This document shows, piece by piece, positions 30,265-39,207 of a DNA stretch of 47,569 nucleotides. The notes below the pieces were generated by a model that was given only the letters and a program-made list of their open reading frames with translations, had not been told where the DNA came from and searched no databases. This stretch comes from Solirubrobacterales bacterium. GTDB taxonomy: Bacteria > Actinomycetota > Thermoleophilia > Solirubrobacterales > Solirubrobacteraceae. Position 1 is the stretch's first letter, and each line of letters starts with the position of its first letter. Position numbers and translations under genes: made by a program. The stretch spans positions 1 through 47,569 of the forward strand of contig JAFAPR010000238.1 in NCBI GenBank assembly GCA_019247075.1. Direction: 5' to 3'.

Positions 30265-33200
30265 TCACCGCGCTCGCGCCGCCGCGGATTGGCCGTGCCG
30301 CGCGCGCAAACCATGAATTTCCTGCAAGGAGCGGACGTCCGGCGCGCCGCGGCGCGCGGCGGCGATCGCCCGCGCGGCAGCCATCCCCCCGGCCATCGTT
30401 GTGATGCAGGGGATCCGTCGTGCAACCGCCGCGGTGCGGATCTCGTAGCCCTCCGCGCGGGCGCCCGTACCGACGGGCGTGTTGATGACCAGATCGACGT
30501 CCCCCCGCTCGATCCAATCGACCACGTGAGGAGAGCCCTCGCCGAGCTTGTTGATCGTCTCCACCGGGATGCCCATCTTGCGGATCGCCTGCGCCGTCCC
30601 CCGCGTCGCGACGACCTTGAAAGAGAGATCATGCAGGATGCTCGCGATGCCGGTGGCGGCGGGTTTGTCGCCGTCCGCGACGGTGATGAAGGCCGTCCCG
30701 GTCGGCGGCAGGTTGGAGCCCGCGGCCGCCTGCGCCTTGGCGAATGCGGTCGGAAAGTCGGCCGCGATCCCCATGACCTCGCCGGTGGAGCGCATCTCGG
30801 GACCGAGCAGCGAGTCAGCGCCCGTGAAGCGCTCGAATGGAAGCACCACCTCCTTGACGCATACATGGCCATTTGCGGTGCTCTTGGGAAGCTCGAGATC
30901 GGCGATTCGCTCGCCCAGCATCAGCCGGCAAGCAAGCTTGGCAATCGGAACCCCGATGGCCTTGGACACGAAGGGCACCGTGCGCGATGCTCGCGGGTTG
31001 GCCTCGAGCACGTACAGCATCTCACCGTGGATCGCGAACTGCACATTGAGCAACCCAACCACGCCCAACGCCAAGGCGATCTCCGACGTCTCGGCGCGGA
31101 TCTGGGCGAGCATCTCCTCGCCAAGCGCATGCGGCGGCAGCACGCACGCCGAATCCCCGGAGTGGATACCGGCCTCCTCGACGTGCTGCATGATGCCGGC
31201 GATCCAGACCCGACCGCCCCCGCCGGAGGCCGCGCTGCCATCGCACAGCGCGTCCACGTCGATCTCGATCGAATCCTCGAGAAAGCGGTCCAGGTAGATC
31301 AAACGTCCTGCCTCCGGCTCGGCTCGTTCGAGGTATTCGCGCAAATCCGCAGCTGTGTAAACGATCTCCATCGCGCGGCCGCCGAGCACGTAGCTGGGCC
31401 GCACCAGCAGCGGAAAGCCCACTTTACCCGCTCGACTCAGGGCCTCGTTCACCGACCGCGCGGTCGCGTACGGGGGGGCCTTGAACCCAAGCCGGTCCAG
31501 GAGCGGACCGAAGCGCGAGCGGTCCTCGGCCAGGTCTATCGCCTCGACGCTAGTGCCGAGGATCGGGATACCGGCCGCGGCTAAACCGGCCGCCAGCTTG
31601 AGCGGCGTCTGACCGCCGAACTGCACCACGACGCCGTCCAAGCAGCCGGCTCGGCGCTCCTGCTCGCACACCGCAAGCACGTCCTCGAGGGTCAGCGGCT
31701 CGAAGTACAGCCGGTCGGAGACGTCGTAGTCAGTGGAGACGGTCTCCGGGTTGCAGTTGATCATGACGGCGGCGCGGCCGAGCTCCCGCGCGGTCTGCGC
31801 GGCGTGGACGCAGCAATAGTCGAACTCAATGCCCTGACCGATGCGGTTGGGCCCCGAGCCGAGAATGACCACCGTTGGGCGCCCGCTCCTGACGACCTCG
31901 CCACCGTCTGCGCCGGCGATGCGGGCCGGCCGCTCCCAGCTGGAGTAGAAGTACGGGGTGCGCGCCTCGAACTCGGCCGCGCAGGTGTCCACGGCCTTGA
32001 AGGTCCGCTCGCCCACGGGCTGGCCCGGCGCGGCCACCAGTTCTGCGAGCTCGTTCAAAAACCAACGGTGGATATGTGTGCGCCTGTGGAGCTGTTCCAC
32101 ATCCGCGCCCCGCCGCAGTGCTTCCAAGAGACGGTCGAATCGCTCGGCGCCCGGCCGAGAGACGGTTTCCAGCAACTCCTCGAGCGTCTCGGGGAATCGC
32201 GGTCTGGAGTCCAGCTCGCGCGAGCGCAGCGCCTTCGCGAACGCTTGCCTGAACGTTCGCCCGATCGCCATCGCCTCTCCCACCGACTTCATGTGCGTGG
32301 TCAGCGCGGGCTCAGCGCCGGGAAACTTCTCGAATGCGAACCGCGGCCACTTGACCACGCAGTAGTCCAGTGCAGGCTCGAAGCTCGCGGGCGTGGCTTT
32401 CGTGATGTCGTTGGGGATCTCCTGGAGCGTGTAGCCGACAGCCAGGCGGGCGGCGATCTTCGCGATCGGGAACCCCGTGGCCTTGCTGGCGAGGGCGCTC
32501 GAGCGAGAGACGCGCGGGTTCATCTCGATCACCACGACCTCGTCGGTGTCAGGATTGACCGCGAACTGAACGTTGGAACCGCCTGTCTGCACGCCAACCG
32601 CGCGAATCACGTCGATGGCCTGATCGCGTAGTCGCTGGTAGGTGCGGTCGCTCAGGGTCTGCTGTGGCGCCACGCACACGCTGTCGCCGGTGTGCACGCC
32701 CATTGGGTCGATGTTCTCGATCGAGCAAACGATCACGACGTTGTCGTCGCCGTCCCGCATGACCTCGAGCTCGAACTCGCCCCAACCAAGCACCGACTCC
32801 TCGAGCAGCACCTGGCCGATCGGCGAGACAGCCAGGCCCCGGCCCACTACGGCCTCGAGCTGGCGCTCGTCGCTGACCACGCCGCCCCCGGTGCCCCCGA
32901 GCGTGAAGGCCGGCCGCACGATGAACGGCAGCCCGACCTGACCGAGCGCCGCGCGCGCCTCCGAGACCGAGTGCGCGATCGCGGAGCGCGGCACTCTCAG
33001 CCCCGCCTCGATCATCGTCTCCCGAAACCGCTCGCGGTCCTCCGCGCGGGCGATCGCCTCGTAGTCTGCGCCGATCAGCTCAATGCCATAGCTGTTCAGC
33101 ACGCCGAGTTCGTGCAGCTCCTTGGACAAATTCAGCGCTGTCTGGCCCCCGAGCGTCGGCAGCAGCGCATCCGGCCGCTCGCGATCGATCACCTGAGTGA

Positions 33201-33420
33201 CGGCGCCGGGCTGGAGAGGCTCGATGTACGTGGCGGTCGCGAGCTCCGGGTCTGTCATGATCGTCGCCGGGTTGGAGTTGACCAGCACGACCTCGTACCC
33301 CTCCTCCAGCAGCACGCGGCAGGCCTGCGTCCCCGAGTAGTCGAACTCCGCCGCCTGCCCGATCACGATCGGGCCCGACCCGATCAGCAAGATCTTCTGG
33401 AGGTCGTCTCTACGCGGCAC
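30265..33420 (-). CDS. carB: Carbamoyl-phosphate synthase large subunit
   Basis: 1051 aa from GTG 33420 ([18 protein letters not shown]), which overlaps the carA stop by 11 bases; upstream residues of the longer frame are carA in another frame. Makes carbamoyl phosphate from bicarbonate, ammonia and two ATP for pyrimidine and arginine synthesis. Two homologous ATP-grasp halves, the first starting at [20 protein letters not shown], the second at [20 protein letters not shown]. The C-terminal MGS-like allosteric domain begins near [17 protein letters not shown]. Ends with a basic tail. Last gene of the pyr operon; pyrD and pyrF, often next, are absent. Confidence 0.98.
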
Positions 33421-34561
33421 GCGCGCCCTCGATGAAGCGGTCGAAGAGGTGAAGCGCGTCGCGGGGTCCGGGTCCGGCCTCCGGGTGGTATTGGACGGTC
33501 GCGGCCGGGACATCCCGCATGGCGAGGCCCTCGACAGTGCGGTCGTAGAGGTTGATGTGGGTCAGTTCGGCGGTGCCGTATGCGGTCTCCCAGCTGACGG
33601 CCTCGTCGCCCTCGATGGTGCGCGAGCCGTCTGGTCCGAGGACCGCGAAGCCGTGGTTCTGGCTGGTGATCTCGATCTGAGCGCGGACCAGGTCCTTGAC
33701 GGGATGGTTGGCGCCGTGGTGTCCAAAGGGGAGCTTGTAGGTTTCAAGCCCGAGCGCGCGACAGAGCAGTTGGTGACCCAGGCAGATCCCGTACACGGGG
33801 ACCCGTCCGACGAGCCGCCCGACGGTGTCGACGATGTAGTCAAGGGCGCCGGGATCTCCAGGGCCGTTGGCGAGAAGGACGGCATCCGGGCCAGATTCGA
33901 GGAGCTCGGGTGCGGAGGCGGTGCTCGGATGAAGCTCCACGGTCGCGCCGCGTGAGTGGAGCTCTGAGACGATCGACCGCTTCACCCCTGTGTCAAGGAT
34001 CGCGATCCGCAGAGAGCCCCCCTCGAGCACAGTCCGCTCCGATGCGGTCACCGCCCCGACCAGGTCGCGCCCGCCCATTGGCGGTTCGATTTCGATCAAC
34101 TCGCGTGCCCGGTGCTCGTCCAACCAAGCTGGAAACAGGCCACCCCGCATGGCTCCCTGCCGGCGGATGTGGCGCACGAGCGCTCGCGTGTCGAGTTCGG
34201 TGATCGCGGGGACTCCGTGCTCTTTGAGCCACGAGAGCCACCCCTGCTCCGCGTCAGGGGCGTCAGCGCGGTCGACGCCCGCCCGCATGATGGCCGCGCG
34301 AGCATGGATCCGATCGGACTCCATCGCGCCGCGGCTGACCCCGTAATTACCGATCTGGGGATACGTGAAGACGAGCAGCTGGCCCGCGTAGCTGGGATCA
34401 GTTACCGCCTCCTGGTAACCCGACATCGAGGTGGTGAAAACGACCTCGCCGACCGCCAAGTCATCGGCCGCGCAGGCCACGCCGTCGAACCGGGTGCCGT
34501 CCTCGAGCAGGACGTAGGCCGGATCACCATCGTTCACTGGCCTGCCTTGAGCGATGCTCAT
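33410..34561 (-). CDS. carA: Carbamoyl-phosphate synthase small subunit
   Basis: 383 aa from ATG 34561, fixed by the ATGA overlap with the pyrC stop. Glutamine amidotransferase that delivers ammonia to CarB. N-terminal CarA domain ([33 protein letters not shown]). Class I amidotransferase domain with catalytic Cys in [11 protein letters not shown] and the His/Glu pair in [17 protein letters not shown] is also conserved. Translationally coupled on both sides. Confidence 0.98.
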
Positions 34562-35904
34562 TTCACAGCCGTAAGCGCGGCGGGCAGGGCGGCGCTGACC
34601 GCGCGGAAAACGACGGCGCCGGCGGCAACCGTCAGCAGCACGCGGCCGCGCAGAGTCTGACCGTGGAAGCAGCAGTTCTCGGATCGGCTGACATATCCCC
34701 GCCCTCCTACTTCCCAGCCTGCTCGGAGGTCCACCAGGCAAACGCTGGCCAGTTGACCTGGGCCGATCGTCGGCTGCGGGAGGTCAAACAGCGACGCCCC
34801 GGCGGTCATCCGTTCGACCAGCGCAGAGAGCTCCAGCTCGCCGGCCTGCACGAGCTTCGTGAACAGGGCGGCGAACGCCGTCTCGAGGCCGGTGGTCCCC
34901 ATCGCCGCCTGCTCGAAGGGGACCTCTTTCTCGTGGGTGGCGTGCGGCGCGTGGTCGGTCGCCACGCAGTCGATCAGTCCGCTGCGGAGCGCCTGCACCA
35001 GCGCGGTGCGGTCGGCCTCCGTGCGCAGCGGGGGGTTCATCTTGAAGCTGCTCTCGAGAGCCCGCACTGACTCATCGGTCAGCGTCAGATGGTGGGGAGA
35101 GACCTCGGCCGACACGAGGGCGGATTGCTCCTTGGCAGCTGCCAGCGCTGCCACCGACTCCCGGCAAGAGAGGTGCTGGAAGTGGACCCGTCCCCGCTCA
35201 TATATGGCGAGCGCCGCGTCCCTGGCCACCATGGTCGACTCCGAGACCGAGGGGATGCCCGCCAGCCCCAGACGCGCCGAGACCGCTCCTTCGTGCATGG
35301 CACCGCCCGCCGACAGCGCGGGGTCCTCCTCGTGCAGCGTGAGCACGCCTCCGCACACGCGCTGGTACTGGAGGGCCTTTCGGAGCATGCCGGCCGATAC
35401 AACCGGCCGGCCGTCGTCGGTGAAGCCCAGCGCGCCGGCTTCGCGCAATTCGGCCATCTCCGTCAGCTCCTGACCGTTCTGCCCGCGGGTGATCGCGGCC
35501 AAGAAACCGACCGGAACGCGAGCCTCGCGATCCGCGGTCTGTGCCAGCGCTCTCAGGACCGAGGCGTTGTCGACGGGCGGCGAGGTGTTCGGCATCGCGA
35601 TCACCGCTCCGAACCCTCCGGCCGCGGCAGCGGCGGTCCCGCTTGCGATCGTCTCCTTGTGCTCCTGGCCTGGTGTCCGCAGGTGGACGTGGGGGTCGAC
35701 GAATGCCGGGAAAAGATGCTTGCCGGTCCCGTCGACCACGTCGCAGTCGTCGGGCGCAGCGATAGACCCCGGCACGGCGAGCTCGGCGATGTGGCCGCCG
35801 CGGATCAGGATGTCCTGGCGGGTGTCGATCCCGGCCCGGGGGTCGAGCACGTGGGCACCCCGGATCAGCAGTTCGGCGGGGCGGCAGAAGAGAGGCGCAC
35901 CCAT
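34558..35904 (-). CDS. pyrC: Dihydroorotase (class I type)
   Basis: 448 aa. Zinc amidohydrolase closing carbamoyl aspartate to dihydroorotate. Metal motif DPHVHLRTPGQEHKE (His72, His74), substrate-binding MPNTSPPVDN, histidines in LTLHEEDP and SPHHLTL, and the catalytic Asp in ATDHAPH. ATG at 35904 shares one base with the pyrB stop (TGATG). The last 40 residues are Ala/Val-rich and slightly longer than usual. A metal-liganding active enzyme rather than a PyrC' pseudo-enzyme, since all ligands seem present. Confidence 0.97.
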   Translation of the reverse strand: MGAPLFCRPAELLIRGAHVLDPRAGIDTRQDILIRGGHIAELAVPGSIAAPDDCDVVDGTGKHLFPAFVDPHVHLRTPGQEHKETIASGTAAAAAGGFGAVIAMPNTSPPVDNASVLRALAQTADREARVPVGFLAAITRGQNGQELTEMAELREAGALGFTDDGRPVVSAGMLRKALQYQRVCGGVLTLHEEDPALSAGGAMHEGAVSARLGLAGIPSVSESTMVARDAALAIYERGRVHFQHLSCRESVAALAAAKEQSALVSAEVSPHHLTLTDESVRALESSFKMNPPLRTEADRTALVQALRSGLIDCVATDHAPHATHEKEVPFEQAAMGTTGLETAFAALFTKLVQAGELELSALVERMTAGASLFDLPQPTIGPGQLASVCLVDLRAGWEVGGRGYVSRSENCCFHGQTLRGRVLLTVAAGAVVFRAVSAALPAALTAVK

Positions 35905-36833
35905 CAGGCGACCGCCTCCAGCACGGGCGAGCCCACCAGCAACTCGTAGAGAACCGCCATCCGCACGGCGACCCCGGCCTTTACTTGGTCCGAGATCAGC
36001 GCCCGCGGCGAGTCGATCGCGTCAGCGGACAGCTCCACTCCGCGGTTGACGGGTCCGGGGTGCATCAGCAGCTGCCGCGCATCAAGGTGCGTCGAGGTGA
36101 TTTGATAACGCTGCACGTATTCGCGCAGCGAGGGCACGAACGCCTCCCTCATTCGCTCCTGCTGCATGCGCAGCACGTAGACCACGTCGGCCTGGCTGAG
36201 CCCCTCGAGCGACGGCTTTGCCTCGCAACCGAGAGCCTCGATCTCGCGCGGGAGCAACGTCGGCGGCCCGCAGACCGTCACGCGTGCGCCCATCCGCCGC
36301 AGCGCGAGGATGTTCGACCGCGCCACGCGCGAATGGAGCACGTCCCCCACGATCCAGATGCTCGCGCCCTCGAGCGATCCGAGCCTGCGCCGCAACGTGA
36401 ACACGTCCAGCAGCGCCTGCGTCGGGTGCTCGTGCTTGCCGTCACCGGCGTTGATGACCGAGGCAGCTGTCCACCCCGCGACCAGCGCCGCCGCACCCAC
36501 GTGGGGAGAGCGGATCACAATCGCGGCCGGGTCGTATGCCGAGAGCGTCTGCACCGTGTCCTTGAGCGACTCTCCCTTCTCCACGCTCGAGCCGATCGAA
36601 CGGACGCTGACCACGTCAGCGGAGAGCCGCTTTGCCGCCAGCTCGAAGGATGAGCTCGTGCGCGTGCTCGCCTCGTAGAAGAGGTTGACGACCGTCCGGC
36701 CTCGCAGCGCGGGAACCTTCTTGATCTCGCGGCCCGAGACCTCGGCGAACGATTCGGCACGGTCGAGGATGCGCTCGATTCCCGCTCGGTCGAGATCCTC
36801 GATCGAGAGCAGATGCCTTCCGATTCCGCTCAT
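35904..36833 (-). CDS. pyrB: Aspartate carbamoyltransferase catalytic subunit
   Basis: 309 aa from ATG 36833 (MSGIGRHLLSIEDLDR), set by the ATGA overlap with the pyrR stop. First committed pyrimidine step, joining carbamoyl phosphate and aspartate. Carbamoyl-phosphate loop YEASTRTSSSFELAAKRL and the GDGKHEHPTQALLD motif are intact, as is the aspartate-binding MHPGPVNRGVE. No regulatory pyrI is present, as is usual in Gram-positive bacteria; control would be by PyrR. Confidence 0.98.
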   Translation of the reverse strand: MSGIGRHLLSIEDLDRAGIERILDRAESFAEVSGREIKKVPALRGRTVVNLFYEASTRTSSSFELAAKRLSADVVSVRSIGSSVEKGESLKDTVQTLSAYDPAAIVIRSPHVGAAALVAGWTAASVINAGDGKHEHPTQALLDVFTLRRRLGSLEGASIWIVGDVLHSRVARSNILALRRMGARVTVCGPPTLLPREIEALGCEAKPSLEGLSQADVVYVLRMQQERMREAFVPSLREYVQRYQITSTHLDARQLLMHPGPVNRGVELSADAIDSPRALISDQVKAGVAVRMAVLYELLVGSPVLEAVA

Positions 36834-37411
36834 CGCCAGCCACCTGTCATCTCGAGCCACGGCACCGCCGGCCCGATCGTGACCTCGTCCACCCCGTCGA
36901 GTTCGCGTACGTGAACGTTGACGCGCTGCTGCCGCGAGGTGGGCAGGTTCTTGCCGACATAGTCGGGTCGGATCGGAAGCTCGCGATGACCCCGGTCGAC
37001 CATCACCGCGAGCTGAATGCGGGCGGGTCTCCCGAAATCGAAGATCGCGTCGATCGCCGCCCGTGCCGTCCGGCCCGTGTAGAGCACGTCGTCGACGATC
37101 ACGATCGTCCGACCCTCGAGCGGGAACTGGAGCTGGGTCGAATGGACCACCGGAGCGCTGGGACGTATACCCAGATCATCCCGGTAGAACGCGATGTCGA
37201 GCTCCCCGAAGGGAACGTCGGTGTCGAGCAGCTCGCTGGTGAGCGCGTGGAGGCGGTGGGCTAGCACAGCGCCGCGGCGGTGGATACCTACGAGCGCGAT
37301 GCCGGCACTGCTTTCCGCAACCGGATTCTTCTCGACGATCTCGTGAGCGACCCGCACGAGTGTGCGGCGCATCGCCTCGGCGTCGAGGACAATCGTTGCG
37401 TCAGCCGACAT
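36830..37411 (-). CDS. pyrR: PyrR, pyrimidine operon regulator / uracil phosphoribosyltransferase
   Basis: 193 aa. RNA-binding regulator that, with UMP, represses pyr expression; also has uracil phosphoribosyltransferase activity in some species. PRPP-binding motif TIVIVDDVLYTGRTARAAID and the RELPIRPDYVGKNLPTS segment are typical; GIHRRGAVLAHRL is also conserved. ATG at 37411 has AAGGAG six bases upstream, which is itself part of a hairpin resembling a PyrR-binding site. First gene of the operon, so PyrR probably controls its own translation. Confidence 0.97.
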   Translation of the reverse strand: MSADATIVLDAEAMRRTLVRVAHEIVEKNPVAESSAGIALVGIHRRGAVLAHRLHALTSELLDTDVPFGELDIAFYRDDLGIRPSAPVVHSTQLQFPLEGRTIVIVDDVLYTGRTARAAIDAIFDFGRPARIQLAVMVDRGHRELPIRPDYVGKNLPTSRQQRVNVHVRELDGVDEVTIGPAVPWLEMTGGWR

Positions 37412-37416
37412 CCAAG

Positions 37417-37450
37417 CTCCTTCCTGGCCTCGCCGGACCGGGTTAAAGGG
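37417..37450 (-). promoter_or_regulatory. PyrR-binding RNA hairpin covering the pyrR ribosome site
   Basis: On the minus strand the leader reads CCUUUAACCC, GGUC, loop CGGCGA, GGCC, AGG, AAGGAG. This fits the known PyrR anti-antiterminator consensus of B. subtilis: UUUAA on the 5' side, an upper stem closed by a CNGNGA hexaloop (here CGGCGA) and AAGG on the 3' side. CCUU can pair with AAGG, so the Shine-Dalgarno AAGGAG is within the structure. There is no U-run, so control would be of translation rather than termination, as described for mycobacteria. A -10-like TAGGCT at 37472-37467 would give a leader of about 50 bases. Confidence 0.75.
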
Positions 37451-37469
37451 GCCAAATCCCTCGCGCAGC

Positions 37470-38102
37470 CTAGCAGTGGGCGTGGGCGGAACCCCACGGG
37501 CGCCCGCGACATCGCCGGTAGAGCACGAACGGCTCCCGCGCGAACGTGATGTCGCGTTCGTAGACGAAGCCAGCCTTCTCCATCACCCGGCGCGAAGCGA
37601 TGTTGTGCGGCTGTGTGTAGGCGATCACCTCGGAGAGCGCAAGTGGTCCGAAGGCGATCTCGACCGAGGCGTTGGCAAGCTCGGTCGCGAGCCCTTCACG
37701 CCAGCGCTCGGGCGTAATCACCCAGCCGATCTCGACCTCGTCACGGCCGGACGCCATCGTGTGCTGAGGACCCCCTCGCCCGACCATCGCTCCGGTGGCG
37801 CCGTCGCGGAAAAACCACTGCCCGAAGCCGTGGCGGTGCCAATGGAGAAGCTTGCGCTCGAGGCCGGCGCGAACGTCCGCGCGCGTTCGCGTCTCGCGCG
37901 GAGACCACATGGTCTCGGCCACACGCGGGTCGAGCAGCAACGTCGCAAGGTCGTCTTCGTGGTCGAGCGCGAGCCGTTCGCCGACCATGCGGAAGGTCTC
38001 GATCCGCTCAGGCGCGATTGGCGCTGATATCGGCTGAGCGGTGGGCGCTGTGCGCAGCGCGCCCTCCCGACGGCCGGCCGAGCGCGGCTCAAACGGGCCC
38101 AT
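37470..38102 (-). CDS. GNAT family N-acetyltransferase (RimJ-like)
   Basis: 210 aa from ATG 38102, overlapping the rnz stop by 14 bases. The N-terminal 25 residues are probably not part of the domain. ERLALDHEDDLATLLLDPRV, the acetyl-CoA region VEIGWVITPERWREGLATEL and the C-terminal HNIASRRVMEKAGFVYER mark the RimJ/RimL type. Substrate unknown; relatives acetylate ribosomal protein N-termini, polyamines or antibiotics. Ends 58 bases before the pyrR start, so the pyr leader lies between the two. Confidence 0.88.
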   Translation of the reverse strand: MGPFEPRSAGRREGALRTAPTAQPISAPIAPERIETFRMVGERLALDHEDDLATLLLDPRVAETMWSPRETRTRADVRAGLERKLLHWHRHGFGQWFFRDGATGAMVGRGGPQHTMASGRDEVEIGWVITPERWREGLATELANASVEIAFGPLALSEVIAYTQPHNIASRRVMEKAGFVYERDITFAREPFVLYRRCRGRPWGSAHAHC

Positions 38103-39134: not shown

Positions 39135-39207
39135 GCGCCCGTAGCTCAGGGGATAGAGCGGACGCCTCCGGAGCGTCAGGCCGCAGGTTCGAATCCTGCC
39201 GGGCGCG
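39135..39207 (+). tRNA. tRNA-Arg (anticodon CCG)
   Basis: 73 nt cloverleaf: acceptor GCGCCCG (39135-39141) pairs with CGGGCGC (39200-39206), discriminator G39207. Anticodon stem GACGC/GCGTC encloses CTCCGGA with anticodon CCG at 39168-39170; T-arm GCAGG-TTCGAAT-CCTGC. CCA is not encoded. A -10-like TAGGCT (39116-39121) precedes it. No integrase or att-like duplication is seen nearby. Confidence 0.97.

Follow-up and report, generated by a model that had tools for sequence, protein, structure and literature searches.

The start of the pyrimidine operon in the window, by which we mean the whole 47,569-nt stretch of Solirubrobacterales DNA that was analyzed (contig JAFAPR010000238.1), raises the question of whether a hairpin directly before pyrR is a binding loop for PyrR and how binding there would control the genes behind it. 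The host is a soil bacterium, and the operon downstream of the hairpin consists of five genes on the minus strand, pyrR-pyrB-pyrC-carA-carB. The first of these (36830..37411) is identified as pyrR by NCBIfam NF003549 (E 2.7e-68) and by the PDB relatives 1ufr, 1non, 1a3c and 1w30. We consider it highly likely that the hairpin is a PyrR-binding loop doubling as the pyrR ribosome site, and that PyrR carrying UMP shuts off translation of pyrR, with the rest of the operon following by coupling.

The predicted PyrR-binding-loop element lies at 37413..37455 on the minus strand, as judged from a match to the Rfam model RF00515, from our own model R1 and from covariation. It reads CCUUUAACCCGGUC-CGGCGA-GGCCAGGAAGG and is contained in the leader sequence CCUUUAACCCGGUCCGGCGAGGCCAGGAAGGAGCUUGGAUG. 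In order, it comprises a lower stem CCUU/AAGG, a 5′ bulge UAA, the pairs CC/GG, a C.A mismatch, the upper stem GGUC/GGCC and the hexaloop CGGCGA (37430..37435). The hexaloop fits the consensus CNGNGA, and its C, both of its Gs and its A are invariant in a 45-row alignment. The pyrR Shine-Dalgarno (SD) sequence AAGGAG (37417..37422) stands in the 3′ arm of the element, 5 nt before the pyrR ATG (37411), and its AAGG forms the 3′ strand of the lower stem; the initial annotation was therefore right to place the SD inside the element. All of the parts that it had listed (UUUAA, the stem GGUC/GGCC, the CGGCGA loop and AAGGAG) were found on the minus strand. Its location for the element, 37411..37450, also stands, while the exact span does not, since the element is slightly longer. 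The observed hairpin is thus confirmed as a PyrR-type element before pyrR, as first described.

The proposed likeness to the PyrR-binding consensus was borne out by a covariance search with RF00515, which matched 37410-37453, on the pyrR start, with 21.0 bits and an E of 0.8 (260 nt searched). This is below the gathering score of the model (21 versus 54 bits), which is a detection rule and not a biological feature; the model has 115 positions, with a downstream part that is absent from the window element. The features of the RF00515 type that the element does have are a CNGNGA hexaloop on a short stem, a 5′ UUUAA with a bulge and an AAGG lower stem, and it adjoins pyrimidine genes in a genome with pyrR. 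Within its own genome (3.88 Mb, 87% complete) the window element is the sole RF00515 match at E≤10 (E 2.79). This limit is loose, with matches also in 9 of 14 control genomes, including that of E. coli, so the weight of the window match lies in its position on the pyrR start and not in its score. With stricter filters and E≤0.1, RF00515 had no match in the same genome, and its cut-off was exceeded in none of 150 genomes of the class Thermoleophilia. Model R1 gives the window 59.5 bits, a score that is not independent because the window is one of the 45 training rows of R1; RF00515 is independent.

Conservation was examined in 80 loci obtained by scanning titled genome contigs for the PyrR protein. 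These comprise 48 loci with readable leaders from Thermoleophilia or close unplaced actinobacterial relatives, one locus (L076) cut off inside pyrR and 31 loci from other lineages; L065 repeats L064, hence 47 of the 48 are distinct. The initial annotation had staked its reading on conservation of the hexaloop, UUUAA and AAGG in relatives, and the comparison did not refute it, as the element was found directly before pyrR in all 48 readable leaders (47 distinct). A chance resemblance to a PyrR loop, for which 21 bits at an E of 0.8 would by themselves leave room, is refuted by this conservation, accompanied as it is by covariation, and we regard it as next to impossible. In four loci (L071, L100, L146 and L029) the stem is kept and a five-base loop, CGAGA, replaces CNGNGA. 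L062 has a tandem arrangement, with a second, degenerate hairpin (about 2925-2990) immediately 5′ of the pyrR element. Alignment A1 omits L045, L062, L065 and L074 (duplicate, near-duplicates and tandem).

We then considered whether the stem itself is under selection. Among the 45 closer elements, 97.8% of cells pair and two-sided changes are few (3 pairs, 5 cells); versions of the structure slid along the alignment equal the real one (3 pairs at +3, 6 cells at +2), so this set alone says little on covariation. With 56 elements, two-sided changes occur in 6 of 10 pairs and in 15 cells, versus 6.2 cells in shuffled alignments, none of 500 shuffles being as high. In this set 92% of cells are paired versus at most 65% in slid versions, which reach 5 pairs and 12 cells; the alignment (A3) was fitted to the structure through model R1, and its pair counts lean towards the structure. 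An alternative alignment, A2, was dropped in favor of A3 because MAFFT ignored the bulge lengths. Two Patulibacter leaders (L077 and L078) have lost AAGG with a compensating change, the lower stem CCUU/AAGG being replaced by UCGU/ACGA, and two elements before carB in another family of the class (f8; L311 and L312) have CCGU/ACGG, again paired and without AAGG. Retention of pairing after loss of AAGG suggests that the stem is selected as a stem and not only as a ribosome site. To judge from these four elements, sequestration of the SD as such is not universal.

Fold predictions were consistent with occlusion of the pyrR ribosome site. The mean probability that AAGG is paired was 0.92 in native leaders versus 0.47 when the 5′ part was shuffled, and 35 of the 42 leaders folded (the window and 41 of the 48 loci) reached at least 0.8. 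In the window, the loop is the minimum-energy fold (−13.5 kcal/mol) of RNA that begins at either predicted start, 37459 or 37455, and stops just short of the AUG. With a start at 37463 it loses this rank, its ensemble energy being 1.3 kcal/mol less favorable. Of six lengths that extended into the coding sequence, two had the loop as their minimum, the cost being 0.7-4.1 kcal/mol. As competing folds appear when coding sequence is added, the free RNA is probably in balance between them, a balance that PyrR would tip. A first fold, of 71 nt, lacked the loop; it was discarded, as the sequence folded began 11 bases upstream of where transcription is predicted to start.

The mode of action was approached through the length and content of the leader. 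The upstream sequence contains an extended −10 motif, TGNTANNNT, in 41 of 48 leaders (the window and 47 loci), compared with a mean of 0.43 of 48 and a maximum of 3 after shuffling, and 39 of the 41 stand 8-21 nt before UUUAA. The window copy, TGCTAGGCT (37467..37475, minus strand), is predicted from this conserved −10-like motif; it would put the start of transcription near 37459 and make the leader about 48 nt long. Scanning 37250-37600 for a consensus promoter returned no −35/−10 pair near the element. The stop codon (37470-37472) of an acetyltransferase-like ORF upstream (37470-38102) falls inside the predicted −10, and farther away a tRNA-Arg (CCG) on the plus strand (39135-39207) adjoins an RNase Z gene. 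No terminator-like site was detected in 37250-37600, in agreement with the original statement that none follows the element. In 46 of 48 leaders AAGG is followed, at a distance of 4-15 nt, by an in-frame start codon (predicted in the case of the relatives), and in the window the AUG is 7 nt past the end of AAGG. The earlier preference for translational control over attenuation is thus supported by the short predicted leader and the lack of a detected terminator. PyrR could instead bind the loop and act by transcription attenuation, as in Bacillus. Leaders in which the scan found a hairpin and T-run preceding or spanning the pyrR start do exist in the class (7 of 9 scored in family f6 and 12 of 16 in f9), and in several other actinobacterial families by eye. 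However, this reading is difficult to reconcile with a start codon so close to AAGG, in the window and at the level of the order, or with a window element that has no terminator near it, and we judge it improbable. A short leader without a detected terminator, in which AAGG is paired and close to the start codon, makes a translational block the natural mode, and the hairpin very probably lets PyrR shut off its own translation.

How repression would spread beyond pyrR is addressed by the gene junctions. As the initial annotation proposed, four of them overlap: pyrB (35904..36833) begins with an ATG that overlaps the pyrR stop by 4 nt, pyrC (34558..35904) shares 1 nt with pyrB, carA (33410..34561) overlaps pyrC by 4 nt, and carB (30265..33420) overlaps carA by 11 nt if the probable GTG at 33420 is its start; all lie on the minus strand. 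In the titled relatives the overlaps recur at pyrR-pyrB in 46 of 48, pyrB-pyrC in 42 of 48 and pyrC-carA in 31 of 41, mostly as 4 nt or 1 nt, as counted from predicted starts by taking the start nearest the previous stop. We infer from this arrangement that repression reaches pyrB-pyrC-carA-carB through translational coupling. Untranslated mRNA is a plausible target for Rho, and it is possible, though we think it distinctly less likely, that PyrR blocks translation of pyrR and that the loss of expression further down the operon is due mainly to Rho-dependent polarity and mRNA decay. Such polarity is compatible with the first half of the explanation that we prefer, but it does not account for the conserved 4-nt and 1-nt overlaps at three junctions, nor for 11 genomes of family f8 in which pyrB is uncoupled from pyrR and has an element of its own, 11-1196 nt after the pyrR stop. 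The latter arrangement lends indirect support to coupling elsewhere.

Based on these results we propose translational repression with coupling. When UMP is plentiful, PyrR-UMP would bind the loop and hold the SD in the lower stem, leaving pyrR untranslated. Translation of pyrB, pyrC, carA and carB would then fall too, since each starts inside or at the stop of the preceding gene. When UMP is low, PyrR would leave, the marginal stem would open and the operon would be translated. We infer the binding of PyrR, the role of UMP as co-repressor and the spread through coupling. The window PyrR differs at three of nine positions that we take to be RNA-contacting (T18V, R27K and T41R, Bacillus numbering); Thermus PyrR also lacks two of these presumed contact residues.

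To place the window in its class, we examined 150 genomes of Thermoleophilia, of which 144 have pyrR; in the six without a pyrR match, the best match to a further model, R2, had an E of only 0.26. In the order of the window (families f1-f4), every one of 36 pyrR rows, the window included, has an R1 match −12 to +30 nt from the projected start (f1 20/20, f2 10/10, f3 4/4 and f4 2/2). Matches are nearly as regular in f5 (31/33), f7 (28/29), f10 (3/3) and f11 (1/1), and weakest, at E≤0.5, in f6 (3/14), f9 (0/16) and f8 (0/15). A letter pattern nevertheless recovers the element in all 9 fetched f6 leaders (from 13 f6 rows with near-complete pyrR) and in all 16 f9 leaders, lying 86-106 nt 5′ of the projected start of pyrR. 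The rows without an element in the other families are a second pyrR copy (G025:C40) and the partial matches of G067 and G069. Two genomes carry two pyrR copies; both have the element in G142 (C23 and C45), and only one has it in G025 (C40 and C48). R1 gave 134 rows in the class, 32 of them not upstream of a pyrR row. Thirteen of these 32 are f8 elements at pyr genes and most others have at most 23 bits; one (G114:C74) is at a contig end, and in two (G038:C155 and G032:C151; L249 and L250) a hairpin with a T-run follows the element. One further off-pyrR match (L251, G146:C59:4470-4512; 32.7 bits) is unexplained, and the letter pattern gave nothing there.

These genomes place the same hairpin at other positions and before other genes, in what appear to be at least four wirings within one class. 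The direct form, as in the window, is also seen in 18 of 28 f7 leaders, 2 of the 18 also scoring a short ORF; the letter pattern finds no element in 2 of the 28, both of which R1 matches. These calls come from a home-made scan for terminators and ORFs that misses some hairpins and that scored 83 of the 85 leaders given, f8 being left out. A second form is suggested by 63 distant leaders, in which 35 nt or more separate the end of the element from the projected pyrR start further downstream. An ATG stands 4-12 nt after AAGG in 48 of them, compared with a mean of 10.3 and a maximum of 16 in shuffled leaders. Upstream ORFs of about 12-25 codons open at the SD of the element (loci L142-L181 and L197-L221), and in 30 of the 63 leaders the overlap between the stop of the ORF and the pyrR start is exactly 4 or 1 nt (2.8 when shuffled, maximum 6). 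The other 33 include short ORFs that end a few bases from the pyrR start, leaders whose ATG is in the pyrR frame (a direct start) and leaders without an ATG. Genus g37 has both the direct and the upstream-ORF form. In the third, attenuator-like form, represented by the f6 and f9 leaders with a hairpin and T-run, a short ORF often runs into the terminator.

In the fourth wiring, that of family f8, the element is scattered over separate genes. R2 found 40 matches in 15 f8 genomes at E≤0.05 (L278-L307, L311, L312, L186-L196, L244 and L247), all 40 before pyrB (12), pyrC (14) or carB (14) and none before pyrR. The training alignment of R2 held 13 of the 40, none of them at carB; the remaining 27, including all 14 at carB, are new. 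In 4 of the 14 carB cases (L285, L302, L311 and L312) the projected start of CarB lies 72-84 nt beyond the element, and which ORF the element serves is unsure. Genome G004 has two carB-like matches, each with its own element. Confinement to these three genes links the element with the synthesis of pyrimidines, and thereby with PyrR. This bears on the idea that the hairpin is an SD-occluding structure independent of PyrR, for example one that senses temperature or ribosomes. The stem alone already pairs the SD, as such a device would require, but the loop letters, bulge and position match RF00515 and the f8 matches keep to pyrB, pyrC and carB; we hold this explanation to be very unlikely. In the literature searched, we met no description of the upstream-ORF wiring or of the scattered f8 wiring, which is weak evidence of absence, and the literature matches listed included no title on pyr regulation in Thermoleophilia.

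Comparison with known systems indicates that the mechanism is already familiar from related bacteria and that the window is probably a further case of translational control by PyrR. In Mycobacterium smegmatis, a PyrR loop reportedly lies over the ribosome site, an arrangement attributed to Fields and Switzer. The window would resemble that system in concerning actinobacterial pyr genes under translational PyrR repression, in an element that overlaps the SD and in a leader in which no terminator or antiterminator was found; it differs in belonging to another class and in being known from comparative evidence alone. The title of that work (Fields and Switzer 2007, cited in PMC13328217 and PMC6455119) names PyrR-dependent translational repression of the M. 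smegmatis pyr genes. The Bacillus pyr attenuator (RF00515) has the same loop consensus, 5′ bulge and lower stem, whereas no terminator was found downstream of the window loop. The pyr leader of Thermus is said, in work attributed to Van de Casteele (1997), to consist of a PyrR loop, a leader ORF and a terminator. The f6 and f9 leaders follow the same order, from the loop through what is often a short ORF to a terminator; in contrast, both leader ORF and terminator are missing from the window. In Lactococcus the pyr genes are divided among several operons, one of which is carB by itself, and PyrR mediates termination (PMC10986495). Lactococcus resembles f8 in having several pyrimidine operons under one PyrR; control there is described as transcriptional, whereas the f8 elements stand just before gene starts, with none before pyrR.

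The loop was also sought beyond the class. Across the phylum, R2 matched in 207 of 296 genomes at E≤0.01. Of 20 loci chosen from these, one per family, 19 precede pyrR and 1 precedes carA; by eye, the gene begins immediately behind the element in some loci, and a hairpin with a T-run intervenes in others. PyrR loops therefore look general in Actinomycetota, a phylum whose groups include Corynebacteriaceae and Mycobacteriaceae in a table of PMC3766115, and the window looks ordinary in this wider sense. Among the 31 loci of other lineages, for each of which 95 nt were examined, one pyrR, from Omnitrophica, has its SD covered by a PyrR-type loop (L081:287-327; R1 15.2 bits, E 0.55), and the direct arrangement may thus also occur outside Actinomycetota. 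No element was found in the 95 nt examined at L107, another Actinomycetota MAG.

Together, these results would extend translational control by PyrR to a deep actinobacterial class in which RF00515 passes its cut-off in 0 of 150 genomes, and the analysis gives a compact model that finds such PyrR-type elements. With at least four apparent wirings, the class is a natural experiment in which to ask how an RNA regulator changes between translational and transcriptional output, and whether repression travels along an operon by translational coupling. Of the by-products, we value most the putative modular use of one SD-bearing RNA operator across the class. On balance we favor a reading in which the PyrR loop of Thermoleophilia is a self-contained, movable translation operator whose 3′-strand SD has been plugged by evolution into different outputs: pyrR itself, an ORF overlapping the pyrR start, a similar ORF that would keep a terminator open, or pyrB, pyrC and carB separately. 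If this is true, pyrR of family f8 would itself escape feedback, and a single protein-RNA switch would give rise to a scattered regulon as well as to repression of translation, directly or by coupling, and to ribosome-gated attenuation.
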